A stretch of 26,554 bases of DNA from Polyrhizophydium stewartii. Lineage: Eukaryota; Chytridiomycota; Chytridiomycetes; Rhizophydiales. The notes under the pieces are model-generated. The model had not been told where the DNA came from, did not search any database, and worked only from the letters and a program-made list of their open reading frames with translations. A program made the translations under genes and the position numbers. The stretch covers positions 1 through 26,554 of the forward strand of contig JADGIZ010000102.1 in assembly GCA_027604665.1 (NCBI GenBank), given 5' to 3'. Of this stretch, positions 1 through 24,663 are shown one piece after another (positions within the stretch are counted from its first letter, which is position 1; every line of letters begins with the position of its first letter).

Positions 1-844
1 GTCGCCCGCCTGCCGGCCCCGCCGCCCGCCGCTCGGGCCTTCACGCCCTCGGCCGCACCCGCCTCGCCCGCCACGCCTGCTGCGCCGCCTGCGCCGCCCC
101 AGGCCACCCGGCGCTGCGCGCCCGGTCCCTGCCCGTCAAGCTCGAGGACCTCAAGTCGCCCGCCTTTCTCAAGATCGTCCGCGACATGGATGCCGTCTTC
201 GACTCGGTGCGGGCTCGACCCGCGGCCGCCATCGCTGGCGCCGCCCCCCCCCCCGCCTGGGCTGACACGCCAGTGGCAGCCGCTGCACCCTGTCCTCGGG
301 CTCGCTGCGTCGCAGCTCGGCCATCCGATCTGCCTGATCGCCTACCAGCTCATTGACAAGCAGCTCTTGCGCGAGAAGCGCATCGACAAGCCCATCGAGC
401 GCACCTTTGTCGTCAACCCCGTCATGCGCATCATGGACCGGACGCCGCCAGAAAAGTGGGAGGCCGAGTACGAGTTCTGCGAGAGCATCCCATACTACTC
501 TGGCCTCGTGCGCCGCGCCAACCACGTCTTCCTCGAGGGCGTCGACCTGCACGGAAAGAGCGTGGGCGTCAATGCCAAGGGCGTGCTGGCGCGTGTGATC
601 CAGCACGAGATGGACCACCTCGAGGGCATCATGTTCCCGGACAAGATGGAGAAGCACAGCTTGCGGCACGACGACGTGCGTGCATGTCTCGATGGGACTC
701 TCATTGATCCGCTTGCTGACCAGCCGCTTCGCACCGCATCTTGCGCGCTCGTCTTGCGATCGGCGGTCCCTGCCAACGCACTCGCCCCGCCGCTCTGCGC
801 AGTACGTCGACAAATTCGAGATGGTCGTGCGGAACACCAAATGA
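1..844 (+). CDS. PDF: Peptide deformylase, organellar type (5' partial)
   Basis: Removes the N-formyl group from newly made proteins, normally in mitochondria. Model: exons <3-206, 280-675, 803-844, all phase 0; 213 residues visible, start outside the window. The first exon opens with an Arg/Ala-rich stretch without acidic residues, as in a mitochondrial presequence, then GHPALR, the usual PDF beginning. Family motifs follow: GLAASQLG (motif 1, normally GLAAPQ/GLSAPQ), EFCES (motif 2, normally EGCLS, or EGCES in animals) and the metal-binding HEMDHLEG (motif 3). The last exon encodes YVDKFEMVVRNTK then stop. Intron 676-802 is supported by frame closure; a TGCTGAC branch-like motif sits well inside it. 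The acceptor of intron 1 could be 273 or 279, both in frame; 279 gives the better spacing to motif 1. Phe in place of the motif 2 Gly is odd. Family assignment is firm, exon 1 boundaries less so. Confidence 0.85.
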
Positions 845-1064
845 ACCCCTGGCATCTGGTAACCATCGCGCTCGGCCGTGGCCGTTTCGAAAATTAGCTT
901 CCCACGCTGCTGCACGTGGAGGCCGCCTGAAACGCCGCGGCTGCTTCACCCAACCTCAGCCTGAAGCCCGACAAGGCAGCAGCGCACTTGCCTCGCGCTC
1001 CCCAGCCCGTCGTCCGTCCGCATTCGCCCCGCCCGACACCTGCTGGCCGCCGCCAAACTCCGCG

Positions 1065-4041: not shown

Positions 4042-7000
4042 TCATCCAATCCGTTCTGGTTGGATGCCAAAAGCGCCGGCAATAAGCCTGGCGAGTGAGA
4101 GGTCGACATCAGCCAGCTTGGCGACGAACGCGACGCGCTCTGCCGAGATCCTGCAGACAACCATCGTCGCCGTTAGCATTTTTCTCTCTCTCTCTCTCTG
4201 TCCACAAACACAATCGGGGACAAAGAGACGCACTTGGGATCCTGTGATGCAATATCATCGGCGCTTGGCCCGTCCGCGGCGCCAAAGTCGCCACCCTGCG
4301 CCACGTCAGAGCCAGGCGTGGAGCGACTGGTTGTGCGTACAAGGCCCTCGCAGAACCTTGCATTCGGAGCAAACATCCTCAGTGGCCGCACAGGCTTGAT
4401 GTCATGCGCGAACACGCTCGAGACAATCCGGACAATGAGCGTGTGTCGCAACAGCACCGCCCTGCATCAGTGCGAGCTGGGCTGTCAGCATCCAATCGCG
4501 CGCGTGGAACGCGTGATGTTGCGATTCAGCTCCGGTGCTCTGCACACCTCGACAGACTCGCATGGTCTGGGCTTTCGCTCAGGCTGGAGAGAACCATGCC
4601 AAAGACGCCGTCGAGCCACTCGCGCTCCATCTGCAGCGTCGACTCCTGTGCGCCAAACGCCGCAGCGCGCACCTGCGTCTTCATCTGCCCAATCTGGACT
4701 GGCTCGGCGGCTTCCAGCATCTCCAGGAGTGACATGCAAGCCGCGAGGAAGCGCTGGGCCGTGGCAACTGGCGACGACTCCGTCAGTGCTTTGCTGCTGC
4801 AAAGAGCCGAGCTGTGCTTCAGGCGTATTCTCACCGTTCATGCCGCAGGTGCGCTCGCACATTTGGTCCTTGGGCATCCGTCGCGCCTTCTCGACAACAT
4901 CGATGAGATTAAACAGCTTGGTCGAAACGCACTGCGTGAACAGCACCAACAGGATCGCCTGTTGCAAACTCGCTGGAGTGACAAACTGTGCGAGCGTGAT
5001 TGCCAGCCGCAATCCATCTGTGATCCGAGTCAGCAGCGCCAAAGGTCATTCGTTCGCAAGGCAGGGATATCTCCCACGCACCAACATCGGACTGCTGGGT
5101 CCAACGATCCGCGTATGCGAAGATGAGATACACCAGTGCCGACTCCTTGCACGGAATACCGAGTGATTTGATGGTCGCCTGATGTGGAGCGTGAGCCGCG
5201 GCTCCGACCAGCAGTCTACGGACCATGAACCGACTCTCACCATAAGCCCTGCGTGCGACTCATCCGCGCCGAGTTTGGCCGCATCGCTGCGCTGCATCTG
5301 GACATCTGCGACAAGCCGCTCAATGCATGTGCGCTCGGTCTTTGGCGAGTGTAAGTGGCGTGACATGCAAGCCCGCTGACCAAGAGCGAAAAACTGACTT
5401 TGCCAAGATCGGCCGGGCTGCAAGGGAGCATAAGGCCGCGGCTGCTTGAGAAGAGAGCGCACAGGGAGCCCAGCATTTTGTCGATATCTGCGTGCAAGGA
5501 TACGGCGTCGCGCAGGTCAGGGAGATCTGCGTGCTGCGCCAAGACATGCGACGCAACCGTCGAGACGAGAATGATATATCCGAGCTGTGCGGCGTCAAAG
5601 GCGTCAGATCCTCAGCAAGGGCGATGAGAGCAGCGACGGCGAGCCGAAGCGCCTCACCTGCGTCGTGGACCACGCAAACTCGAGCATCAGCAGCATCGCA
5701 CGGCGATCCGGCGCAACGCCGCCCTGAATGACGTGTGCCAGCATGTGCGCCAGGCTATCCAGGTGCGCGCGGTCTTGCCGCGCAAGATCGACAAACGAGG
5801 TATCCTTCATAAACCTTGTCAAAAGCACCTGGTGCGCAGCTGTGAGTAAGCCGGGAAGCAAACTCAGTATCGGGGTCTGGCAGCACAACTTACAACCCAA
5901 TCTGAGCTGCCAATGCGCATTTTGCGAACTGCGTCCTTGAATCCTTGCAAGTCACCGACAAAAGGGGCAACCAGAATCCGGACGAGTGCACCGAGTGCGG
6001 CGGCATCCAGATCGTCGGCAAGCCGCAATGGCGCGGTGTGCGCGTTGCTGCTGCCAGGCGTCCAGCGCCGGTTGAGAGTGAATGACTGCGCGAACGAGCG
6101 TGGGCCTGGTATCGCCGCTGATGGAGTGGCAGCAGGCACAGCTGGTTCGCTCTCGAGCGTTGGGAGTATCGGCGCCAAGGCTTGGGCAAGCAGCTTGCTG
6201 ATGGCTGCTGTTGCGGGGTCGATTGTGGCGGTCATGGCCATGCTGTCCTGAACTTGCACGGAGACCAGATGCTGATACTGCCGCAGGCAGTGGATGCGGA
6301 CCACAGCGTCAATCGAGTTCTTTGCGTCCTGGCTCTGCTGCTGTTGCTGCTTGGTGTTTGACACCAGCGACGCCAGTGAGTCGATCTGCACACTCGGCTC
6401 GAGGCCCAAAGTTGCCGCGACGGCCTCGAGCATCGTGAGGTGCACTGCCGCTGGTATTGCGTCAGACAGGCTTGACAGTGCGTTGAGCTTCTGGCTCGAG
6501 TTGTCCAATGCCTGGATCTTGTCCTGTATTTGCTTGAGCAGTGCGCCTTTTGCAGCATCATCGAGCGAGGCGTGGGACGCTTCGAACTTGTCAACGAGCT
6601 GCGCGAGCGTGCCAGTGTGTCCCGAAGTCGAGATGATGCTGCATCACAGAGTCAGCGATTGGAGGAGGCAGCAGCGCGGTAAAGACGGCACTCACCCGGA
6701 GAGCCATTCAAAGGGCACGACGATCCGGCGGATATCGCCCGTGGGCGAGATGAGAAAGCACTGCGAGAGCGGGCCGAGGGAGCTTGGATCGTTAAGGCGC
6801 CAGTACATGCCGCCCAGTACGCCCGGTGCAGACTGCACAAGCCGCATGCCCACGCCAACGTTGGAGATGGAGATGCGTTGGCCATGGCGCATGAGATGCA
6901 GCTCGAGGACGCCGCGCGGCGAGTAGATAGCGAGAACGAGCAGCACGGGCCTTGGCCCTTTGGCAGAGGCGTCTGCGACCTGGATCCAGCCAATCTGCGC

Positions 7001-8488
7001 CTCGCGCATTCCCTTGAACATGCGCACAATCTGGCCCTCGTTCGTGTCGATGACAAGGATGCGGCCAAGCGAGTCGCACATTGCCGCAAGCGAGGAGCGC
7101 GGAGAGAATGGAGACGGTGGCGCAGAGACAATCGAGTTGACGTTGCGGTTCGGGTCTGCGAGAACCAGCACTGATGGCACGGGCGTTGGTGGCATCGTGA
7201 GCCGCTGGTTGTCGCCGCGTGGGATCGGCGGCTGTGAGTTGGAGGGCGGCGCATTCCAGAGCGACTTTGCAAACGAAAACACAGCGCTTTTCGTCCCAGA
7301 TCCGTCAGTATGCCGGAGAAGGTGCAGGCACCAGAAAGCAGCTTACCTGGTGACGGCTGTCGTGACGTTGTTCGAGACGATCCCGGCAAAGAATGAGCGG
7401 CTTGTTTCCGTGGTTGCATAGAGTGCGACCATCGGCCGGCCGACGGCAACGTAGCGTGCAGTGTAGTTCAGGGGCGTGTAGCTTCCTGTGAGGTTGTTGA
7501 ACTGTGGCGCGAAAAACGTTGAGTTGGGTGCCGGCCCTGAGGAGGGTGTCAGGCCTCGACAACAGAGCTTGGTGCGCGCTGCATGTCACGCACCGCAGCT
7601 TATGATGTCCGTGATCTGCTCTTGGCTCTGGAATACCCACTTGCGATACGTGAGCGAGGGCGAGTCGCTGCGAAAGATGTCTGCACCTGTGGTTGCACTT
7701 GTCAGCTTGCCAGCAGACAAGGAGCCTCGGGGGGCAGGAGCGCATACTTTCAGCAGAGTTCTGGCCGACACGGGCAGCCACCCAGAAGCTTGTGCCGTCG
7801 ATACTGACAGCGTGGCGATCGCTGTAGCACACTGTAATCTCGTCGGCCTCTTGGCTGTCAAACGACTGGACCGAGCGCAGCTTGATGGACCGGACACTCG
7901 AGAGATGCAGCTGCTGAGAAATAAGCAAACCTCCAGCCTGCGTGCAGATGATTACGAGTGTGTGAGAGTGTGCGCATCACTGAGCAGCGGCGAGAATGGC
8001 AGCCACGAACGCACCTTGTCAAAGACGCGCAAATATCCAGTGTTGTATCCCATCGCGATCGCAAGCGACATTCTGCACGCGAGACCGCCTCATCAGGAAC
8101 ACTGCAAGTATGTACATGCAGGTTTTGCGGCGAGTGCAGGACACGCACTGGCTCTTCCCGGACTTGGACGGGACGTAGAGCGGGATGCAGAGACACGCCG
8201 TTATGAACTCGCTGCGAGGACGTAATGAGTTGCCAGAGTCAACATATATATCGCTGTGTTGATGCCTGTAAAGTATGCTCACCTGAAGTCCTCGCACCCG
8301 GATCCTTGCCCGACCTGCTCGTAGTCGTGACGATTGCCCTCGCTCTTGGCGGCGAAGACGGCGAAGCGGCGGCGAGCGGCGCACACAATCGTCGATCCGT
8401 CGTACGACATCGAGATCATATACGGCACAATGCTTCCTGGGCTCTGCGAGGATGCCATGGCTGCCACCTTGTCGTCCGGCTGCGCCAT
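4042..8488 (-). CDS. RAB3GAP2: Rab3 GTPase-activating protein regulatory subunit (RAB3GAP2-like)
   Basis: Non-catalytic subunit of the Rab3GAP1/2 complex, which acts as a GAP for Rab3 and an exchange factor for Rab18 in membrane traffic, lipid droplets and autophagy. Sixteen exons, in gene order: 8488-8283, 8211-8149, 8072-8015, 7937-7748, 7686-7594, 7536-7347, 7286-6696, 6638-5894, 5828-5658, 5584-5399, 5339-5241, 5178-5082, 5017-4835, 4788-4548, 4461-4234, 4150-4042; every junction keeps frame and the model gives 1149 aa (human protein 1393). Diagnostic stretches: AMGYNTGYLRVFDK, LTYRKWVFQSQEQITDII, IVRMFKGMREAQIGWIQV, YSPRGVLELH, and a C-terminal segment HTLIVRIVSSVFAHDIKPV. The N-terminal ~400 residues match the beta-propeller region, the rest the helical C-terminal region. 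A polyGln run lies in the middle. An in-frame TGA 6 nt upstream of the ATG supports the start. The NAGNAG-like acceptor at 7687/7681 could shift two residues. The catalytic partner is not in the window. Confidence 0.88.
4183..4199. repeat. (TC)n simple repeat in last intron of RAB3GAP2-like gene
   Basis: A run of TC dinucleotides lies inside intron 4151-4233; on the coding strand it reads as a GA-rich (polypurine) tract between donor and acceptor. Confidence 0.8.
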
Positions 8489-12761: not shown

Positions 12762-13865
12762 TTATTCGCGATCTGTGAGCTGGATCGACTGGATTGTCGG
12801 GTGGTGCGTCGAGGTGCGCGCTTCACTGCTTGCCTGCTTGCTGTGGCCTCCGCTCAGAATTGATGCGACGGATGGCTTGACCCAGCCGAGCGACAAAGCC
12901 AGTCGACGAAGCGATGCCTTGAGGCGCCCGTCAAGCAAAACGAGAAGGATGGGATCCAGCGCAGCATTGACGCAACTTGTTACTGATCCGACGATATCAA
13001 ACTGCCAGCTGGGGTTCGACTGAGTTGTGCTCTCCAGCGTCATCCTCACAGAGAGCGGCAACCACAGAATCACAAAAACAACCGACAGCGTCAAGCCACG
13101 CACGGTAGCCGCCCGGCGCGCTGCGTCCAGTGCTTGTGAAGGCGTGATGCCCTTGGCTGTCTGTCCCGAGACTTTGTTTGTGGCTGCCGACTCGGTATCC
13201 GAAGAATCCCGGAGGCCATCGAGCAACTTCTGTGCTGTGTAGATGTGCCTCCACAGGCCGGCGTAGGTGACAGAAATAATCACTGGTGTCGCAAACAGCG
13301 TCGTGACGTTGATGATGTTCAGGGTCTGGGAGAAAGGGCCGCCAGTAATGGTGCTGTAGTGGCACCACGTCCCCGATACGCCAATGGCAACTGCGTGCGG
13401 CTCGATCATCGTGATCAGGCAAACGTTGACGATGAAGAGACACCACGCTCCGACGACCAAAAATGCGCACAGCGCAAACGATGGCGTAGGGAACTTGAAA
13501 ACAATGACCAGCACGGGCACAACACCCAGCGGAATCAGCGAGACGACCGTCGAGCCAGCCAGCACTTCCATTGCTGCTGCATAGAAGCGGCAGAGAAATG
13601 GGCTCTCGGAGAAGATCGAGTGAGGCTTCCCAATGCTGAGGAGCCCATATATGCTTGTGAGGATGCAGAACAGGAAGTCGCTTAGGACAATATTGCAAAT
13701 AAAGACAAAGTCAAAAGTGAGGGACCGCCGGATCTCGACGAGTGCAGAGGTGATTAGGGCGTTCCATACGACGCCGACGAGGCTGATGAACAGAATAAGG
13801 ACGATGTATGGGTAGACCCCGTCTGGCAGGAGCATTAGGCGGCTGTCCGCGAGCTGCGCGTCCAT
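12762..13865 (-). CDS. Seven-transmembrane receptor, rhodopsin-like, paralogue 1 (single exon)
   Basis: Predicted plasma-membrane G-protein-coupled receptor, 367 aa, no introns. The frame is open upstream to 13892 but without ATG, so the ATG at 13865 is used. Class A landmarks: Asn35 in TM1 (WNALI), Asp63 in TM2 (LSDF), Cys92 at the top of TM3, Trp141 in TM4, Cys168 in loop 2 (SGTWCHY) as disulfide partner, Pro194 in TM5, WLP at 268-270 in TM6, and NAALDP (300-305) where TM7 usually has NPxxY. There is no DRY motif after TM3. Intracellular loop 3 is short (~50 residues). Shared with the genes at 18843 and 20101: SGxxCH, ExxAG in TM3, WxxD before TM7, and LWRH/VWHR/IWRH after TM5. Ligand unknown. 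TM7 has no Lys at the retinal position, so it is not an opsin. The distance to the receptor upstream on this strand is 159 bp. Confidence 0.85.
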   Translation of the reverse strand: MDAQLADSRLMLLPDGVYPYIVLILFISLVGVVWNALITSALVEIRRSLTFDFVFICNIVLSDFLFCILTSIYGLLSIGKPHSIFSESPFLCRFYAAAMEVLAGSTVVSLIPLGVVPVLVIVFKFPTPSFALCAFLVVGAWCLFIVNVCLITMIEPHAVAIGVSGTWCHYSTITGGPFSQTLNIINVTTLFATPVIISVTYAGLWRHIYTAQKLLDGLRDSSDTESAATNKVSGQTAKGITPSQALDAARRAATVRGLTLSVVFVILWLPLSVRMTLESTTQSNPSWQFDIVGSVTSCVNAALDPILLVLLDGRLKASLRRLALSLGWVKPSVASILSGGHSKQASSEARTSTHHPTIQSIQLTDRE

Positions 13866-14024
13866 TTCGGCGACGTGCGCAGACACGGGCACCCGACGGC
13901 GGAGTGGGAAACTCGTCAGGAGCGAGATTCGAAAGATTTAATTGATTTTGAAAGACAGCGTCGGTAGCTGGATCGCGCAAAACTGGTTTACACGAAACTT
14001 TTGTGCGGGTCTCTGTCTCCTGTG

Positions 14025-15911
14025 CTATTTCTTGAGACCAGATGCGGCAATCGCTTTTGTGGAGGCGCTGAGAGGCCAAGAGCTGTTGACCCTGACGGTT
14101 GACTGGCTGCCGCCGAGCGAATCGCTTTGAGGAACCCGCATACAGAACGCGCGGGCAAGGCGAGTGGCGGCGGCGTTGACGGATCCGCGGAGCCGGCCAT
14201 CCAGCGCAAAATAGGCGATCGGGTTGACCATCGCGTTGAGACAGACAAGCACGGAACCAAGGGTGTTTGCGTCGGCGTCCAGCCCAAAGCCAAGTGGCAG
14301 GATCATCTCGACGAGGTGACCAAGCGCAAAGATGGACCAAGTTGCGAGCCAAAGCGAGAACATGGTGCTTCCGCGCAGCCAAAATGCGCTCTGCAGCCGC
14401 GAGCGCACTGCGGCTTCAGAGTTCTCGTCGTCGAGCATGCTGGTGTCTCTGGTGAGCGATGCACCAGCTTGGCGTATCATCGGCGAGGACGGAGGCGAGA
14501 GACCCGCATGGTGTGCGCGTTCCGAAGCGACTCTGCCGCGAGCGTCAGGTGCATGGCCGGTGATATCTACAGCGGCTTCATGCAGCGTGTGGCGGTTCTT
14601 GTAAGAGGCACAGTATACATCGTACTCGTCAACTTCATCCTCATCGTCGCTGGCCACATTGGCATCGCGAGCGCCGCAACCATGCGCGCTTGGGTGCTCG
14701 TCGGCTCGCGCAATCAAAGCGTTTACATCTGGATCAGTTAGACCGACTTGCGCAATGCCAGGCTTGTTGTGCTCGCTGACTGTTCCATGACCGCAAGCTG
14801 TTGTTGCGGCTGCGGGTCGGCGTTCCGGATCATCGAGCGTGGCCAGGCGCTGTATCTTGCCGTGGAGCGACGAAGCGCGCTGGCACAGCTCGAGAGTTGC
14901 AGGAACAGGCACCTTGCGCGTGGGGCAGCGTGATGGACTCTCGGACTGAGTGAGCGAGCCGCACCGCTGTATGCCGATTGAGCTCTGGCGCATTGGAGAA
15001 CGCAATGGGCTGCCTGTCGCCGACTGGCGTGACGCAGCGCTGCCGCACCGCACAAGCCCACGCTCTGCGTGCGCTTCGATGTCCTTCTCGCCGCATCCGT
15101 CCTTGACGCCCATGTAAGCGCCGCCGGTGATGCTGCGCTGGCTCAGGCGGCCAATATCTCCTGCGCCAAAGGAAATGCCCGTGGCAACGCCCATGACGTC
15201 CTCCTCGGCGGCATCGACCCCAAAGAACAGGAACCGCGGGATCGTTCTCGCCATCGAAAAATACGCCGAGAGCGCAACCCACGGCGCCAGCAGCGCAAAC
15301 GCAAGATGCGCGGCGTTGGCGGCGATGTAGACGTCGTCGCGCGCGCCAAAGTCGGCGAAACAAAACGAACCCGACGGCTCGAGGCGGTAGACGGCAAGGG
15401 CATCCGTCTCGGGCGACTCGGACTGCAGAACCCGGAGCCACGGCGCGAGCGCGAGGACGCTGCCTACGGTCCAGACGCCGGCGATCATGGCTGCGTGCTG
15501 GCCGCGCGTGAAGGGCGTCTTGTCTGGCCGGAGTTGGTGGAAATGGAACAGCGCGAGTGCGGTGTTGGTCGCGAGGCTCACGAGCATGAGCAGGTTGAGG
15601 ACGGTGCCCTGGACCTGGCAGAACAGCGAGCGCCGGATTCCATCTGCGGCACCGGGCGACGCGGCCTGCGAGGCCTCGGCCGCTCCCCAGGCTGAGATGG
15701 TCGCAACGTCATCGCTGGCCACGATGCGCGCGAGCGAGGTTCCGGCGAGGACGAGCGCGAGCAAGCCATCGGCGACAGCGAGGTTGATGCTCAGGCCGTT
15801 GCGGTGCGTCCGCAGCTCCTTGGTGCGGCTGACAACGGCGAGCATCAGGCTGTTGGCGGCGACGCCGAGCACGCCGACGCAGAACAACACTGCCTGCAAG
15901 GTCGCCCCCAT
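14025..15911 (-). CDS. Seven-transmembrane receptor, rhodopsin-like, with ~300-residue third intracellular loop
   Basis: Predicted G-protein-coupled receptor, 628 aa, single exon. The frame reaches 15938 without another ATG; ATG 15911 is used. Landmarks: Asn20 (VAANSLM, TM1), Asp48 (NLAVAD, TM2), Cys98 (TM3 top), Trp147 (AGVWTVG, TM4), Cys184 (loop 2), Pro210 (TM5), and a canonical NPIAY in TM7 (Asn563). TM3 ends FHFHQ instead of DRY, and TM6 lacks the CWxP proline. Loop 3 spans roughly 221-515; it is Ser-, Arg- and Asp-rich, with an acidic DDEDEVDEYD patch, and probably disordered with many potential phosphorylation sites. The Lys needed for retinal binding is absent. It lacks the SGxxCH signature of its three neighbours, so it belongs to another subfamily. 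Ligand and G protein cannot be inferred. Confidence 0.82.
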   Translation of the reverse strand: MGATLQAVLFCVGVLGVAANSLMLAVVSRTKELRTHRNGLSINLAVADGLLALVLAGTSLARIVASDDVATISAWGAAEASQAASPGAADGIRRSLFCQVQGTVLNLLMLVSLATNTALALFHFHQLRPDKTPFTRGQHAAMIAGVWTVGSVLALAPWLRVLQSESPETDALAVYRLEPSGSFCFADFGARDDVYIAANAAHLAFALLAPWVALSAYFSMARTIPRFLFFGVDAAEEDVMGVATGISFGAGDIGRLSQRSITGGAYMGVKDGCGEKDIEAHAERGLVRCGSAASRQSATGSPLRSPMRQSSIGIQRCGSLTQSESPSRCPTRKVPVPATLELCQRASSLHGKIQRLATLDDPERRPAAATTACGHGTVSEHNKPGIAQVGLTDPDVNALIARADEHPSAHGCGARDANVASDDEDEVDEYDVYCASYKNRHTLHEAAVDITGHAPDARGRVASERAHHAGLSPPSSPMIRQAGASLTRDTSMLDDENSEAAVRSRLQSAFWLRGSTMFSLWLATWSIFALGHLVEMILPLGFGLDADANTLGSVLVCLNAMVNPIAYFALDGRLRGSVNAAATRLARAFCMRVPQSDSLGGSQSTVRVNSSWPLSASTKAIAASGLKK

Positions 15912-16066
15912 CCGCTGCGGCGAATATCGAGAAGACAAAGGTCAAGTCGCGTCTCGCGGTCGCGCTGCGACGATACTCCCCGCTGACGAGCCAATTTGCC
16001 TGCGCATTTGAATTTGCTTCATTGATATGGACTTTGGCAAAGCGGGCAGACGGATTATGCGTCCAC

Positions 16067-18557
16067 TCAGTCGAGCAGTGCGGCGAGTTCGAGAATATGC
16101 CAAAACTGCAGGCCGACTGGCTGCAAAAGTCCTGCCCATTCTTTCTCGCGAGGCCTCCACTCAGACTCGGATGGCTTGATGCCCACGCTCATCCTGAATC
16201 CCCGCAAGTTGTGTGCTTGTCAGCCAAATCAAGTCGGCATCAAACAACATTTCGTCTCGACTGCGGCCGACTCACGCAAAAATGAGCACGAGGCAGACTG
16301 TCCACATTTCGGCATCAGGCAAGACGGTCGTGAATTGTCCAAGCGCGAGCGTTTCGGAGATGCACAAAAGGTCGTGCTCCAGTTCCAGGCCGAGATGATG
16401 CTTGCGGCGAATCAGGCGGAATCTGGTGTTCGATGCGGTCAGCAACAACGATCCAGCAGAAGAAAGCTCGCATCAGGCAAGGACTCACGTCTTGAGTAGC
16501 TTCAGGGAGAAGATCTCCCGCTGTGTCCGGAGCTCAGGGCCGCCGAGAAGGGCTGCTGGCTTGCGCTCGAGCGGCTCTTCAGACGACAGCGCCGTTTTCA
16601 CCATCTGCTTCGTCTCCGCAGTCACGATAAAGCCAAAGATGTTCCAGACGCGGCCAAAGAGCGAAAGGCCCGGAAGGTTCATGGTCTTACTCGGCTTGAG
16701 CCAGAGCTCATTCTCGGAATCGTCGTCTGTGCTGCCCAGGAGGCTCGCGCCGTCGTCGTCATCGTCGTCCAAGCCGTCAGAGTGGCCTTCGCCGCCTTGT
16801 CTGGACGTCTGTGCCGGGACTGCAAGCTGTGTCGTCGCAGCCTGCTGTGAGAGAGGTTGAGAGCGCTCGCTGCCGCCTGGGCGAGATTCTGTGGCTTGTG
16901 TCGAGGCGGTTCCGCTCTTGGAAGCCTTTGCGTCAGGCGCGTGCAACTTCAGCGTGTCGGACTGAGTCGCAGACGTCGGTGTCTCTGCTGCGGGCACCTC
17001 GACATGCGGTTTGGCGTGACGCTTGGCCCGGAACTCGGGTGACGCGGCCGCTGGTGCGGTATCTACTTGTGGTCGGGCCTGGCTTGGCGGCAAGGCAGCA
17101 ATAGGATCCGTGGAAGGCGTGGAAGACGGCTCCGCATCGCTCGAGCTCAATACAGCAACGTCGCCATTACCCAAGCCCTTCTTGCGGTTCTTCTTCTTCT
17201 TCTTCCGCTTCTTCTTAGAAGCCGTTTGATCCGATGGTGTTGGCGGCTCCGCGGCGGCGGGGGCTGGTGGCGGCGGCTGAAGCGTCGAGCCAGTGGGGCC
17301 AATCTCGAGGGGCTCGGAGAATCGCAGAACACGCTCGATCGACCTGCCGATACTGTCCAAGCTCTTTTTTGAAGAGAGCGCCGATTTGGGCTTGGGCGAC
17401 TCGGTCAGTGCATCTGCACTCTTCCACGACCTGAGTTTGCGGGGATTTGCGGCAGTTGGTGGTGTAGACTTCTCGAGGGGCTTTGGCTGGGCCGGCTCGG
17501 TTTTTGGCCGTCGCTTCTTTGGCACCATCGGGCGACGTTCATAGACGGATTTGGGCGTGAATCCCTCGATCAATTGGTGCTCGCCAGCGGCAATGCTCTT
17601 TTTGGGGTCGTCAGCGCCTGGCCCAGTATGCGAGTCGACGTCGACGTTGCGCTCGACAATGGGCAGGGCATCGCTGTCGAGCACTGGCGGCATGCTGACG
17701 ACCAGCGAGTCGATGTAGTCATAAATATGCTTGCGCATCGAGCGATCGGGTGACTCGGCCGCATTCGTGTGTTCCTGGACCGTGCGCTGGCGCAACTTGA
17801 TGAAGTCGCTCATCTTGGTGCGCGGCGGGACGAGCTCGAACTGGGTCGGTGCACCGAGGTCGCGCATGTACACGGGGTCCTCCGAGAGCTGCTGCACCAG
17901 GAACTGCGATGCCTGCATGCACTCGGCGCTGCAAAAGGCCTTTTGGTCCGTAATGTCGAAGACCCGGCGCTCCGACAGCGAGATGTGGAAGCGGGCGGTT
18001 ATCGGCTTGGCCTACGCAGCGGGGGGGGGTCAGCGAGCGAGGAGCGGCAACAGCATGGCCGCGGTGTGCCTCACTGACATTGAGCCGCCGATCGCATGCC
18101 GGGTAGCCGCACAGGCGTTCGGCCTCTCGCTCGAGCACGACTGCCCTGTACGCCTCGGGCGTGAAGAGGCGGCACTGCACCAGGGTGCGTGGGCAGGGCG
18201 ACGTCAGCGCGGGCAGCGCTGCGGCATGCACGCTGCGGGATGCGGCGGCGACCGCACCGTCTCCGCAAGGCTCTCGAGCGATGCCGCGCCCTCAAAGAGC
18301 GCCTGCTGGTGCTCAAACACGAGGTCCTCGAGCTCCTTGCGTGCCTTTGCCGACTTGAGGACGGCCTTTTGGCGCTCCTTGAGCTTCGGCGACGGCTTGG
18401 CGGCGGCCGCGTCGCCAGCGGGGGCGGCACGCCTGCGCCGGCCAGGCTTTCCGGTGCTCGGCTTCTGCGCTGCGCTTCCGGCGGCCGCAGGCGCCTGCGC
18501 CTCGCCAGCCGCCGGGCGGGCGGCGTCGAAGGCGTGCCCCGTGTCGGGCTTGAGCAT
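16067..18557 (-). CDS. RPAP2: RPAP2/Rtr1-type RNA polymerase II CTD phosphatase
   Basis: Acts on the Pol II C-terminal domain (Ser5/Tyr1 phosphate) and in Pol II assembly and import. Exons: 18557-18258, 18174-18079, 18011-16489, 16422-16276, 16193-16067; 730 aa (human 612). The Rtr1/RPAP2 zinc module spans exons 2-3: LFTPEAYRAVVLEREAE, then CGYPAC (Cys122, Cys127) and FCSAEC (Cys159, Cys163), followed by ASQFLVQQLSEDPVYMR. The helical N-terminal part (SPKLKERQKAVLKSAKARKE) precedes it. The middle is low-complexity, with a long Lys-rich block (KKKRKKKKKNRKK, probable nuclear localisation signal) and a run of six Asp. Exons 4 and 5 restore the conserved C-terminal region: LKLLKTFRLIRRKHH corresponds to the end of animal RPAP2. 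The ATG at 18557 has A at -3; an in-frame upstream ATG (about 18602) is a weaker alternative. It is divergent from the receptor at 18843. Confidence 0.9.
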
Positions 18558-18842
18558 TTTGAGGCAAGATGCTGCGGTGTTCTGGCGGCGAAAGGCAACC
18601 ATGTGCCGCCATCGCCGCCAACGGATCGACGTAACACTCCGTCCTTCACCCGTGCGGATCGGTGCAACGCACAACACATCGCTGGGATGCATTGCTCCCG
18701 GGGTGGCCGATCCGCACGCCGGCCGTCGGCAAAAACCCAACCTTGCGATCGAGCCGTCTGCGATCGCGGCATTGTCTGGGCAAGAGACCTCGAAAGCAGA
18801 ACGAGGCGAGCTGGCCACGCAGCAGCGCACACGCAGCGAACC
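18558..18842. promoter_or_regulatory. Divergent promoter region, RPAP2 / receptor paralogue 2
   Basis: The 285 bp between the two divergent start codons must drive both the phosphatase gene (-) and the receptor gene (+). Open frames crossing it are GC-driven. No TATA-like element stands out. Confidence 0.6.
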
Positions 18843-20018
18843 ATGCCTGGCCCGCAGGCTGTAACAGACGTCCAAATGCTCCCGCCAGGCGTGCCCGCGG
18901 CGATAACTGTCTTCTTTGCGGTCGCGATCCTCAGCGTGCTGGTCAATGCAGTGCTGATCACCTCGCTGATGGCAAGCCGCAAGCCCCTTTCGCTCGACTA
19001 CTATCTGATCGGCAGTCTCCTCATGGCCGACCTGGGCACGGGGCTTTCGCTATGCTTCGCAATGGGCGGCAGCCTCGGCGCCAGCACGACGGCGCTCTCG
19101 GCCGCAGACCCGATCTGCCGCGCAACGGCGTTCGGCATCGAGTACTTTGCTGGCGTGGGCATCCTGACACTCGTTCTAATTGCGCTGCCGCCTGTGATGG
19201 TCACAGTCAACATCGCCTTGGCGCCGACTCGGCAGATGATCTTTGCAGCCGCGGCGTTTGTATGGATACTCTGCGCGGGCAACACGATGGTGACGGCGCT
19301 GGGCGACCCAGAGTCCGTTGTCGTGATGCCGTCGGGCATGTGGTGCCACTACCGCGCAACATCGGGCCGGCCGCTCAGCATATACATTCAGATCACCAAC
19401 TTGAGCGTGATATTACTGTCGCCGTGCATCGTCGCGGCATCGTACGGCTTTGTGTGGCACAGAATCTGGGCACTGCAGACCCAGATCAAGCGGATCACGG
19501 GGAGGATGAATCTCGCCACCGATAACTCAGAGTCGAAAACATGCACCGACAGCGAGGATCCAGCTCCCCAGAAGACGAACATGAAGCATCGCAAATGTGA
19601 CAAGGAGCTGTCCAAGGCACGCAGGAAAGCTGCGGTCCGCGGCACCGTTGTTTCGGGAACGATGCTCATCCTGTGGACGCCGATGCTTGCACGCATCCTC
19701 TACGAGACCACCACGGGTCACAGGATTGGTTGGCAGGTCGACATGATCTCGCTGATCTTCTGCGGATGCAACGCACTCGCAGACCCCATTGTGCTGCTCA
19801 TCATCGACCCAAAGAGCCGGTGTCTTGTTGCTAAGATCTGGGGACCCGAGTCCAGCCGCCGCAGTAGTGCGCGGGGGAATCAGGATATGGGCAGCTCGAG
19901 CAGTCTATCAAGCGATGCTCCCGCCCGAAGCAAGGCACGCACACCGAGTGGGAAGCGTGTGATTCTCAAGATGAAGACAATCACAGCCTTGAACAATGCC
20001 TCGCGCAGGCAGGATTAA
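18843..20018 (+). CDS. Seven-transmembrane receptor, rhodopsin-like, paralogue 2 (single exon)
   Basis: Predicted G-protein-coupled receptor, 391 aa, intronless. The open frame extends upstream to 18189, but that part overlaps the divergent phosphatase gene on the other strand, so the ATG directly before the first hydrophobic segment is used. Landmarks fall at the same residue numbers as in the 12762-13865 receptor: Asn35, Asp63, Cys92, Trp141, Cys168 (SGMWCHY), Pro194; TM6 has WTP (278-280) and TM7 NALADP (310-315) in place of NPxxY. No DRY motif. Loop 3 is longer (~60 residues, rich in Lys, Ser and Asp), and the C-terminal tail is Ser/Arg-rich. The same TM3 motif (IEYFAG), WQVD before TM7, and VWHRIW after TM5 mark it as a paralogue. 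The next gene starts 82 bp downstream on the same strand. Ligand unknown. Confidence 0.85.
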   Translation: MPGPQAVTDVQMLPPGVPAAITVFFAVAILSVLVNAVLITSLMASRKPLSLDYYLIGSLLMADLGTGLSLCFAMGGSLGASTTALSAADPICRATAFGIEYFAGVGILTLVLIALPPVMVTVNIALAPTRQMIFAAAAFVWILCAGNTMVTALGDPESVVVMPSGMWCHYRATSGRPLSIYIQITNLSVILLSPCIVAASYGFVWHRIWALQTQIKRITGRMNLATDNSESKTCTDSEDPAPQKTNMKHRKCDKELSKARRKAAVRGTVVSGTMLILWTPMLARILYETTTGHRIGWQVDMISLIFCGCNALADPIVLLIIDPKSRCLVAKIWGPESSRRSSARGNQDMGSSSSLSSDAPARSKARTPSGKRVILKMKTITALNNASRRQD

Positions 20019-20100
20019 AATGCTCAGCAAAGCTCGAGTGCTTCTCTGGTTTGCATAAAGCACACCGGTCCAGGGGCTGCCTTTTTGCCAAAGCACCGAA

Positions 20101-21087
20101 ATGAACGACACCTATCCGCCAGTGCCAGAGGACGCTTTTGCGCCGGCGCAGGTTGTCAAAACAACAGCAACGGTTCTCATGATGCTCACAGCTACCGGAA
20201 TCCTGACCAACGCGCTGGTCATCTACGCCATGGCTGTGAACCGCGCGCGGCTTTCATTCGACTATGTCTACATTGTGAGCCTCGTGACCGCCGACACGTT
20301 GTTGTGCGTCGTGCTGTTTGTGTCGAGTGCCTTGAGCGTCTCGTGGGGCGAGCCGGCAATCACGACGCTCCCCGGCATGTGCATCTTCCAGACCTTTATC
20401 CTCGAGGAGCTTGCGGGAGCAAGCATGTTCACGCTCATGGCGTACGCCGTCGTGTCGTCGCTGTCGATTCTTGGGCGGATACCGCAGGAATCACCAAAAC
20501 TTGCGCGCGGCATCCTGATATGCATTTGGGCCGTTTGCATTGTGCAAGCCGGGCTCGTTGTGGTTGTCGAGCCGTCGTCGGTGGTTGCGAAGCAGTCGGG
20601 CCTGTACTGCCACTTTACGCCGAAAGCAGGGCTGTCGATGAGCGGATACATGCAAATGGTCAACATGGTCGTGATGATTGCAACGCCCGTCACGATTGCG
20701 GCGTCGTACGGCGCGATCTGGCGACATATTTGGACGATTCAGGTGCGAATACGCCAGCTGACCAGGAAGATGGAGCCAAGCACCGAGAGCCGTTCCACCA
20801 CCGCGGGCCAGCCGTCAAAGTGGACGTCGCAGGACATGCTCGACGTTGCAAAGACAAACACCGTGTATCGCGGAATGATCATGTCGCTGGTCTTTTTTGC
20901 GGCGTGGTCGCCCATGTTCATGGCCTTTGCGGTCGGACTCTCTGGTGGGCGTGTCAGCTGGGAGCTTGACACTGTGGCCCTCGTCCTGAGCGTCTGCAAC
21001 TCGGTCGCCAACCCGATCACTGCGCTGTTGCTCGACCGCAAGCTGCGCACCGCGCTTTGGCGGCTCGCTGACCGGAGGCCAAAGTGA
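20101..21087 (+). CDS. Seven-transmembrane receptor, rhodopsin-like, paralogue 3 (single exon)
   Basis: Predicted G-protein-coupled receptor, 328 aa, intronless. Landmarks: Asn37 (TNALV), Asp65, Cys94, Trp143, Cys170 in SGLYCHF, Pro196 (ATPVTIAASYG), AWSP in TM6 (268-271), and VANP in TM7 (Asn304-Pro305), so this copy keeps the TM7 Asn-Pro that its paralogues have as Asp-Pro, though without the Tyr. The shared TM3 motif is LEELAG, the pre-TM7 motif WELD and the post-TM5 motif IWRHIW. The C-terminal tail is very short, ending DRRPK directly after helix 8, so few phosphorylation sites are available. The N-terminus is short and has no clear signal peptide, as usual for class A. Its stop codon lies within a GTGAGC sequence that resembles a splice donor. 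A D-amino-acid oxidase gene starts 37 bp downstream. Confidence 0.85.
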   Translation: MNDTYPPVPEDAFAPAQVVKTTATVLMMLTATGILTNALVIYAMAVNRARLSFDYVYIVSLVTADTLLCVVLFVSSALSVSWGEPAITTLPGMCIFQTFILEELAGASMFTLMAYAVVSSLSILGRIPQESPKLARGILICIWAVCIVQAGLVVVVEPSSVVAKQSGLYCHFTPKAGLSMSGYMQMVNMVVMIATPVTIAASYGAIWRHIWTIQVRIRQLTRKMEPSTESRSTTAGQPSKWTSQDMLDVAKTNTVYRGMIMSLVFFAAWSPMFMAFAVGLSGGRVSWELDTVALVLSVCNSVANPITALLLDRKLRTALWRLADRRPK

Positions 21088-21124: not shown

Positions 21125-22716
21125 ATGCTTTCCGACACATCGATGCTGCCGCCTGCTTCTCGCGATGGTCGCCGCTGCGTGGTGCTCGGCGCCGGCGTGG
21201 TGGGCCTGACAACGGCGCTGCTGCTGCAACGCAACGGATGGAGGGTGAGGCCTCGTGCGCGGGATGCTGGGGCGGGCTGCGGACCAGGTGCTGACGGCGG
21301 CGGTGCTCGCAGGTGACAGTCGTGGCAGCGGCGACGCCTGAAGCGTACGACGAGGCCGACCCGGCGTATGCGTCGCCCAAGGCCGGCGCGGACTGGACGT
21401 CGTTTGCGGCCGAGGACGACCTGCGGCTCAAGGGTCCGCTGTCGCCCAGGCGGCTGCCTTGCGGCTGGCTGCAGACCTTGCTGACCCGCCTGCCCACGCC
21501 AGAGTTCGAGGTCGAGTCGTTCAAGGTGCTCGAGGCGCTGTCGCGGCACCCGGCGGGCATCGTGGGCTTGATGCCGTCGCGGACGCTGATGCCGCGGCAG
21601 CCGGCCGGGTGGAAGCGGCCGTGGTTCGCCGAGCACGTTCCCGGGGTGCGTGCGTCGCTCTCCCCGACCCACACCGTTCCCGCGCACATCTCAGTCGCGC
21701 GGCGCATGACGCTGACGCGGGTCTGTGATCGCGTCCTGTGCACCATGCACATCTCCCAGTTCCGCACGCTCGCGCCCGCAGAGATTCCCGCGCCGTACAC
21801 CTTTGGCTACGAGCACACGACCGTGAGCGTCAACGTGCCGCGGTACCTTGCGCACCTGCTTGCCGCCTTCCGCGACAACGGCGGCGAGCTTGATGCGCCA
21901 CGAAAGGTCGCGCACATCGACGACCTCATCGCGGCGTTCCCAGGCGTCGACGTGTTCGTCGTGTGCGCCGGCCTTGGCGCACGCACGCTCGGCGGCGTCG
22001 CGGACGAGACGGTCGTGCCTGTGCGCGGACAGATCGCGGTCATCAAGGCCGACGTCGCATATGCCGCATGCGTGGTCGAGTGTGCGTCGCACCCAGACGC
22101 CGAGCGTCCGCGCCGCTGACAAGAACCTGCTCCGGATGCAGCCGAGTCCGAAAACGTGTTTGCGATGGAGGAGCTCACGTACATCATCCCACGCAACGAC
22201 GGGACCTGCATCATCGGCGGAACTTGCATTCGGGGCGACAGGTGTGTTTGGTCTGCGCGGCAGCTGCGAGATTCTCAACCAGTGCTGATTGGGCGGCTGC
22301 TCTCAGTGACATGGCGGTCCGGCCAGAGACATTTGGTCGGATTGTGGAGCGTGCCACGGCCTTGCACGAAGACATCTCCGCCTGGGCGTCGCTGCACGGT
22401 GCATCCGAGGCTGGCATCGAGGCCGGCGTGGTGCGGCACGCCGTCGGCCTGCGTCCAGTGCGGCGCGACGGGATCCGCATCGACGCAAGCGCCTACGGTA
22501 AGCTGCCGCATATCTGGCTTGCTCGACCGAGCGTGAGTCATTGACCCCCGTCGCGATCCTGCAGATGCGCCGACGCGCAGGGTTGTGCTCGCACATCACT
22601 ACGGCCACGGCGGCTATGGATTCCAGACGAGTTGGGGCAGCGCCATGGCGGCCGTCAAGGCGATCGAGTCGGCATCGCTCCAGTTCGAGGTTGCCTGCGC
22701 GTATCCTGCTGCATGA
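21125..22716 (+). CDS. DAO: D-amino-acid oxidase (FAD-dependent)
   Basis: Oxidises D-amino acids to 2-oxo acids, ammonia and H2O2. Exons: 21125-21244, 21313-21645, 21760-22081, 22142-22241, 22307-22497, 22565-22716; 405 aa. FAD-binding Rossmann motif VVLGAGVVGL (19-28); PAYASPKAGADW aligns with the family's second flavin motif; GFRTLAPAEIP spans junction 2; RGQIAVIKAD; Tyr272 in TYIIP and the Arg residues of LRPVR correspond to the substrate-carboxylate site; the C-terminal signature is HYGHGGYGFQTSWG. Intron 2 (21646-21759) is 114 nt with no in-frame stop, so its retention would insert 38 residues; a GTGCGT donor and the family alignment favour removal. The C-terminus ends YPAA, without the peroxisomal SKL-type signal common in fungal enzymes. 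Only 37 bp separate it from the receptor upstream. D-aspartate oxidase is the main alternative. Confidence 0.92.
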
Positions 22717-23026: not shown

Positions 23027-24549
23027 ATGGACTTTCTCATTACGCCGGCGACGCTCCGGGCAGCTCAGACCCACGCATCGGCGCAAGGTCGCCTCTCGGT
23101 GGCGCCTGCAGCCGAGTCGCTGGATGGCCGTGCGAGCGCAGGCATCAGGGCCGGCGAGCGAGGCAACGGCAGCGGCAGCATGATGGCGGCGGCGTCACGC
23201 GAGATGGATGCGCCGCCGAGCGCGGTTGGGTCGCACCACTTCTTCTTCGGGGCCGCAGGCAGCGGGAAGCAAGGCGGTGCGTGCGCGAGTGGCGGCGGTG
23301 CCGCTGCAGCGTCGCTCGGTGCGCTTGGCTCGCGTTCTGCCTCGCGCTTGTCGACGGCGACGGACGGCAGCGGCACGGCGCGCCAACGCGCTCGCGAGTC
23401 AGATCTCAGTCCCGAGACGCGGCATCTGCTCAAAAGTGGGTGCCCGCTGCATCGCGGCGCTCGGTTACTGCAGGTCAGCGTGGCTTGCAAGCTGACATGT
23501 GCCGATGCTCACGCGCGGGCTTGTGTCCATGCAGGTCTGATGCGCACGTCCAAGCTCACGTACTCGCAACAGCGCTTCCTCGACGGCCTTGTCAGCGGTG
23601 CGTGCGCTTGCTGTCGGCGCGGCCCAAGCTGGATGCGGGCATCGCTGATCCGTAGAGCGGGCCGCCGATCGCAGACGTTGGCGCGCTGCCCTCGAACCCA
23701 TCGAGCAGCATGCACACACGCGGAGGCGGCACGCCGGTGCCCGGCAGTGCTGCGAGGCCGAGATCAGCGTCTGGCGCCAGCGATGCCGGCGACGGTGGGC
23801 ATGGCCGCCCTGCAGCTTTCGGGCGGCATGAGCGCGCCGTGGCTCGCGCTGCCGAGCTGTACGAGTGGATGTCGCGGCCAGGCATCCGCACACTGGACCA
23901 GATCAAGCAGGCGGGGATGTACGAGCCCGACGTCTTCCGCACGACACCAATGAGTTGCGTTGCTTGGACTGGGACACCATATGGCACCTGCTGACATTGG
24001 GCATCTGCATGCGCTGCCTCCGACGGGACGGCTCATCCGCGGGCAGAGGACATGCAAGCAGAGAAAGAGAGGTTCCAAGATCGCCTCGAGGGCATCGAGC
24101 GGCCGAAAGACTCGCTCAAGGCCTTTGGCAGGCGGCGAGGGTTGCGCAGCAAGGAGGTCGATGCGATGCCCGCCATTGCCGAAGAACCAGCCGTCGACGA
24201 ATTTGAAATGGGTGTGCCTCACGCAAGCCGCTCGTCCGCCTCGCAAAGAAGCAAACGAGTCGCCCATACTGACCCGAGATGCAGTTCAGCAGGAGATTCA
24301 GGAGCGCCGGCAATGGCTGGATGACATGATCGCACTCGGGCGAGGCGACAAGTACAAGCGCCAGATCCAGGGCGAGATTGCACAGGTGGGCCCTGCCAAA
24401 CTGCACTGGCTCGAAGTGCGCGGTGCTGAAGCGTCGGGCAGCGGGTCTCGAGGCTTGAGCAAATCCACAAAGAACGACTCAAGACGGGCACGGCTGCAGG
24501 ACCAGTACCGGCAGCGACAGCAGCGGCAGAGCCTCCGCATCCAGCTTGA
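23027..24549 (+). CDS. UPF0193 family protein (C22orf23/EVG1 homologue), probable ciliary protein
   Basis: The family is largely restricted to organisms with cilia or flagella; its molecular role is not well defined. Exons: 23027-23435, 23535-23597, 23675-23953, 24047-24211, 24285-24385, 24442-24549; 374 aa (human ~217, the excess being a Ser/Gly/Ala-rich N-terminus). Conserved core: LLKSLMRTSKLTYSQQRFLD (human has [20 protein letters not shown]), then DMQAEKERFQDRLEG, EEPAVDEFEM, QQEIQERRQWLDDMIALGRG and KYKRQIQGEIAQ, ending in RVSRLEQIHKERLKTG. Start ATG 23027 has A at -3 and G at +4. The exon 3 donor (GTTGCG) is the weakest junction; the others close frame with good signals. The gene is convergent with gamma-tubulin, with 114 bp between the stops. 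Confidence 0.85.
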
Positions 24550-24663
24550 GCAGAGGCTGCGGGGCAATCCTGGCTCTTCTATCCATGGGCGGCCATGGGT
24601 CGCGCACTTTCAACAAAAGCGAATCTGACGGTTGATTGGAAAAATATGCATGTTCTGGTCTGA

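Follow-up and report, generated by a model that had tools for sequence, protein, structure and literature searches.

Class A G protein-coupled receptors lacking the DRY arginine in the chytrid Polyrhizophydium stewartii

Four receptor genes, W1 to W4, lie in a 26,554-nucleotide stretch of the Polyrhizophydium stewartii genome (assembly GCA_027604665.1, contig JADGIZ010000102.1, positions 1 to 26,554 of the forward strand), here called the window, which corresponds to contig C102. They encode class A (rhodopsin-family, Pfam 7tm_1) G protein-coupled receptors (GPCRs), and none of them carries the arginine of the D/E-R-Y motif in transmembrane helix (TM) 3. With a probability of roughly 0.6, they represent a Rhizophydiales branch of class A receptors that has no TM3 arginine, has the proline and tyrosine of TM5 closer together and bears an arginine at position 6.36, the members being chemoreceptors that signal through G proteins in the absence of R3.50. 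We infer the coupling to G proteins, the contribution of R6.36, the type of ligand and a use in zoospore sensing. Residues are given Ballesteros-Weinstein numbers, in which we take 6.36 to be part of the G-protein contact area. The original prediction, made from the sequence alone, had supposed a zoosporic fungus, in agreement with the source organism (Chytridiomycota, Rhizophydiales), which is described as a saprophytic relative of Batrachochytrium (PMC12204190).

The window contains four intact open reading frames (ORFs), each with a terminal stop codon: W1 (12762..13865, minus strand, 367 aa) and W2 (14025..15911, minus strand, 628 aa), separated by 159 bp, and W3 (18843..20018, plus strand, 391 aa) and W4 (20101..21087, plus strand, 328 aa), arranged head to tail with a gap of 82 bp. 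All four proteins exceed the curated Pfam 7tm_1 cut-off of 30.5 bits (E-values 5.6e-12, 1.5e-9, 1.5e-14 and 1.5e-16, respectively), and because of their GC content by codon position (GC3 0.70-0.77, GC2 0.46-0.53) the genes fit coding sequence. AlphaFold2 models, calculated for W4 and W2, show a class A seven-helix bundle with helix 8 and a hairpin in extracellular loop 2 (ECL2), bearing out the rhodopsin-like fold originally proposed. The long third intracellular loop of W2 (residues 240-488; 14448..15194, minus strand) is predicted to be disordered, with a predicted local distance difference test score (pLDDT) below 50 in the model. W6.48-x-P6.50 and the N/D-P of TM7 are present in W1, W3 and W4 (hereafter the trio); W2 has W-x-I and keeps N-P. 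Class A membership rests on such other features, because D/E-R-Y is typical yet not universal: 96% of the rhodopsin-family GPCRs are described as having R3.50 (PMC3848830). The identity of a cAMP-receptor-like protein (Dicty_CAR, fungal Class 5) was rejected, as PF05462 was not among the families matched by W1 to W4 at an E-value of 1. The window is a real, well-formed receptor cluster whose broad kind is already known: Rhodopsin (7tm_1) GPCRs have been described in chytrids and blastoclads (PMC3251606) and constitute fungal Class 15 (PMC12842992), so that the suggestion of receptors outside the described fungal types fails at the class level.

Scanning the window with Pfam and searching the 12.86 Mb assembly (690 contigs) with 7tm_1, W4, W2 and a Batrachochytrium salamandrivorans receptor (P0002) revealed at least 11 class A genes, consistent with the expanded receptor set originally envisaged. 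Four of them lie on C102, two each on C598 and C542 and one each on C385, C436 and C164. These counts are lower bounds, as the assembly apparently comprises only contigs from about 10 kb upwards (two were checked: C1 with 83,490 bp and C690 with 10,013 bp). The search with 7tm_1 can overlook members, because it missed W2 and C542b and placed C542a below the cut-off. The 11 receptors were aligned with P0002, giving 12 chytrid rows, and with a fish receptor and another class A protein. The TM3-ECL2 cysteines C3.25 and C45.50 are present in all 12 rows of the family and may form a disulfide.

R3.50, counted without gaps from the TM3 cysteine, is absent from all 12 chytrid rows (0/11 in P. stewartii, 0/1 in B. 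salamandrivorans). The triplets at 3.49-3.51 are HHY and NHY (two each), FHY, FHF, VNW, LNW, NPV, VPV, PPV and VSS, ten kinds in 12 rows; the two non-chytrid rows read QRY and DRY. The family profile also places its H-Y on the R-Y of the beta-1 adrenergic and CCK-B receptors. In the window the site is occupied by VPV in W1 (residues 116-118; 13512..13520, minus strand), FHF in W2 (residues 122-124; 15540..15548, minus strand), PPV in W3 (residues 116-118; 19188..19196, plus strand) and VSS in W4 (residues 118-120; 20452..20460, plus strand). No [DEN]RY occurs in any of the four window proteins, and the lack of DRY noted at the outset was thereby confirmed.

Two further features are shared by the family. 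The spacing from the TM5 proline to the tyrosine is 7 in all 12 chytrid rows versus 8 in both other rows and, by eye, in three further receptor types. Arginine at 6.36 is found in each of the 11 chytrid rows that reach TM6, versus neither of the two other rows and none of the three receptors compared by eye; in the window it corresponds to Arg256 of W1 (13098..13100, minus strand), Arg513 of W2 (14373..14375, minus strand), Arg266 of W3 (19638..19640, plus strand) and Arg257 of W4 (20869..20871, plus strand). The five non-chytrid class A receptors checked all have R3.50, and none has R6.36 or the shorter spacing. W6.48 and the N/D-P of TM7 are each kept in 10 of the 11 rows with TM6-7.

The receptors might also be ordinary class A chemoreceptors in which the missing DRY has no mechanistic meaning, position 3.50 having drifted because other contacts suffice and R6.36 being merely ancestral in fungi. 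The high variability of 3.49-3.51 would agree with this, as would the loss of DRY in two choanoflagellate rhodopsins (PMC12716839), but xHY in 5 of the 12 rows, including one from another genus, together with FHF in W2, suggests that the site remains under constraint in some of the family, and we regard such drift as quite unlikely.

If, as in the preferred reading, the receptors signal through G proteins despite lacking R3.50, a small molecule or peptide from outside the cell would bind in the pocket beneath the C-H-aromatic strand of ECL2, TM6 would swing outward with its W-x-P kink as the pivot, and the cytoplasmic face that this opens would engage a G-alpha subunit, with R6.36, at the cytoplasmic end of TM6, possibly taking over part of the work of R3.50. 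Positions 3.33 and 7.35 line the ligand pocket in class A receptors. In the alignment they are occupied in the trio by Glu and Asp, respectively, and because both residues are acidic they may favour a cationic ligand. GPCR signalling machinery exists in the genome, since G-alpha genes were found at four loci above the cut-off (plus a piece below it on C547), together with seven RGS matches and one locus for the C-terminal arrestin domain (Arrestin_C).

Animal atypical chemokine receptors have lost DRY. By this parallel the main rival explanation sees in the chytrid proteins atypical, G-protein-silent class A receptors that serve as scavengers, decoys or arrestin-type signallers. The absence of R3.50 from all 11 P. 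stewartii receptors, the retention of P6.50 in just 6 of the 11 rows with TM6 and the Arrestin_C locus are in keeping with this; it would be strange, however, for all 11 receptors of a repertoire to be decoys when no partner bearing DRY was seen, and the conservation of W6.48 and of the TM7 N/D-P also speaks against this explanation, which we regard as unlikely. Several points nevertheless weigh against coupling without R3.50. The arginine is described as critical for function in one receptor studied (PMC3848830), and its loss could equally mean that G-protein coupling was lost. Besides the patchy P6.50, C164 lacks D2.50 and the N-P of TM7, and C542a lacks N1.50 and W6.48. Fungal receptors may have inherited R6.36 from their ancestors, with no connection to the loss of R3.50; CCK-B has, by eye, an arginine one position earlier, at 6.35, and the controls comprise five non-chytrid receptors only, three of them compared by eye. 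ERY receptors may lie in genome regions missing from the assembly, with its apparent lower limit of about 10 kb per contig. The wider proposal, that Rhizophydiales evolved a whole class A repertoire activating G proteins without R3.50, in which R6.36 and a TM5 shorter by one residue rebuild the cytoplasmic switch, is accordingly put forward only tentatively, as a possibility that we favour less than its negation. If true, a central element of rhodopsin-family activation that is regarded as near-universal would have been replaced across a fungal radiation.

A function as light receptors (type II opsins) has been proposed for one Spizellomyces receptor, and PMC9616733 reports a type II opsin-like GPCR from across the zoosporic fungi. 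Among the structural matches of W4, opsins rank top by Z-score and appear from rank 15 by Foldseek E-value. Lysine at 7.43 is present in none of the 11 rows with TM7, and an opsin function was rejected as very improbable. The type II opsin-like GPCR of Spizellomyces punctatus (PMC5410147; SPPG_00350 in PMC9616733) is likewise a chytrid class A receptor, but is described with a retinal-suited lysine and ERY, neither of which occurs in the P. stewartii set.

The trio forms one clade with a support of 99/98, as expected from the three-member paralogous family originally proposed, and its landmark residues fall at identical numbers in W3 and W1 (N35, D63, C92, W141, C168, P194) and at nearly identical ones in W4 (N37, D65, C94, W143, C170, P196), again in line with that proposal. 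W4 shares 26-30% identity with W1 and W3, and because no trio pair exceeds about 30% the duplications are probably old. Judged by these comparisons, the trio appears to consist of old local duplicates, with W2 as a more distant relative. The motifs SG[TML][WY]CH[YF], E-x-[LF]AG (with Glu 8 residues past the TM3 Cys), W[QE]xD and [IVL]W[RH][HR]I[WY] occur once each in all three trio members and not in W2, as was expected of trio-specific features; that all of them are private to the trio was ruled out, as several recur more loosely in other P. stewartii receptors and in the B. salamandrivorans relative. Of the 7 P. stewartii receptors encoded elsewhere in the genome, 5 have C-H-[FYL] in ECL2, as does P0002 (the fish row reads C-H-D). 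W7.32 with D7.35 is found in both C598 receptors, P0002 and, by eye, the C-terminal piece of C385, and Glu 8 residues past the TM3 Cys in the C542 pair. In the alignment the Trp-basic motif was observed in the trio only.

A search with the trio profile, in which, as in each profile search, about 8,000 candidates were scored, gave no relative outside P. stewartii at an E-value of 1 or below, the matches being W3 itself and P0008 at 1.2; because of that number of candidates the absence is weak evidence. W4 alone found no match at 1e-3 among 5.8 billion proteins, not even W4 itself, which the collection seems to lack. The trio profile gave 33 pattern matches and no relative among viral contigs.

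The tree was calculated from 14 rows: the 11 P. stewartii receptors (C385 with its N-terminal piece only), P0002, and P0007 and P0008 as the other class A rows. Not included were P0003, P0004 and P0006, which are variants of P0002, and P0005, which duplicates the C385 piece exactly. As just two rows lie outside the chytrid group, the tree does not bear on whether this group is monophyletic relative to class A as a whole. The C598 and C542 receptors are local pairs, as in the window, with clade supports of 100/100 and 100/99. W2 has a long branch and an uncertain placement; its sole other match in the genome is C436 (E-value 2.2e-11). Approximately unbiased tests neither supported nor rejected a clade of the four window receptors (p-AU 0.212), of the trio with the C542 pair (0.387) or of W2 with C436 (0.351).

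All 11 receptors are single open frames except that on C385 (L009, 26-1183, minus strand), which is interrupted between TM5 and TM6 by an in-frame TGA. The public 241-aa P. stewartii protein HK105_005474 (P0005), identical to this ORF across all 241 residues, ends there, while TM6-7 continue in that frame. No intron spanning the TGA was found in a limited search, which required an in-frame length of 40-300, a YAG acceptor and a GTRNG donor no more than 150 bases upstream. Some family members may therefore be broken, but that the window genes are non-functional remnants or assembly artefacts has next to no probability, given four long open frames, TM landmarks conserved despite the low identity, a coding GC3 and the presence of W3 in the database as a 391-aa protein on a longer contig of 220,717 bp.

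In 2012, 12 Rhodopsin-family sequences were reported from chytrids and blastoclads, three from Allomyces, one from Batrachochytrium dendrobatidis and eight from Spizellomyces (Krishnan et al. 2012, PMC3251606). They are described there as having D/ERY or ERY and NPxxx, and separate cAMP-receptor-like sequences as showing NxY. A 2025 survey lists 984 sequences of Class 15, many in Entomophthoromycotina (PMC12842992). The P. stewartii receptors resemble the published chytrid and blastoclad set in belonging to Pfam 7tm_1, in occurring in zoosporic fungi and in the TM2 Asp, the ECL cysteines and the TM7 NP. They differ from the 2012 set, as far as its text description of ERY goes, in the absence of R3.50 from 11 of 11 proteins, the closer Pro-Tyr pair of TM5 and the shared R6.36, although some sequences of the 2012 and 2025 papers may belong to the DRY-less branch. 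E/DRY has likewise been lost in class A receptors of another unicellular opisthokont, the choanoflagellate Salpingoeca, there in two proteins nearest to metazoan opsins and SOG receptors (PMC12716839), here in a multi-gene chytrid set.

A relative from another genus, B. salamandrivorans BASA50_010509 (P0002; 7tm_1), shares 47% identity with the C385 receptor and 39-42% with those on C598. In common with P. stewartii receptors it has NHY, the Pro-to-Tyr spacing of 7, R6.36, Q3.33, C-H-F in ECL2 and W7.32 with D7.35. Its similarity to the trio is weak (best pieces at E-values of 6e-8 to 1.5e-7), and it has NHY, not VPV, PPV or VSS. Two B. salamandrivorans gene models, P0003 (989 aa) and P0006 (960 aa), join the class A receptor to a reverse transcriptase domain (PF00078). 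In some strains a retroelement may have inserted next to or within the receptor gene, or the gene models may be fused.

The literature searched, outside which most subscription papers lie, yielded no account of a chytrid class A family lacking DRY. The DRY-less, R6.36-bearing branch appears to be unreported; taken by itself, the trio is a group of local paralogues. A full-text search, with chytrid matches judged by title, found no literature on GPCRs in chytrid or Batrachochytrium zoospore chemotaxis. R3.50 is regarded as central to the activation of class A receptors, and a family without it in any member found is a natural experiment on what the arginine is needed for, because the class A fold is kept in the two modelled members and W6.48 and the TM7 N/D-P in most. 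The branch is worth testing and offers concrete candidate receptors for chytrid environmental sensing.

Other receptor classes are also present in the genome. PF05462 gave five matches on C338 and C313, four of which form a local cluster on C313 (3244-15880). Sixteen pieces matching 7tm_3 (class C, glutamate family) are distributed over nine contigs (C218, C385, C391, C426, C438, C444, C462, C490 and C515), so that class C receptors, too, exist in several copies.

Between the two receptor pairs of the window lies a low-complexity ORF of 477 aa (16485-17918, minus strand) with no Pfam match at an E-value of 0.01. The cluster is surrounded by coding pieces for a peptide deformylase (190-897, plus strand), the RAB3GAP2 N-terminal domain (6692-7195, minus strand) and a FAD-dependent oxidoreductase (DAO; 21571-22119, plus strand). 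A further ORF (23981-24628, plus strand) matches UPF0193 (E-value 1.7e-10), a family associated with cilia.
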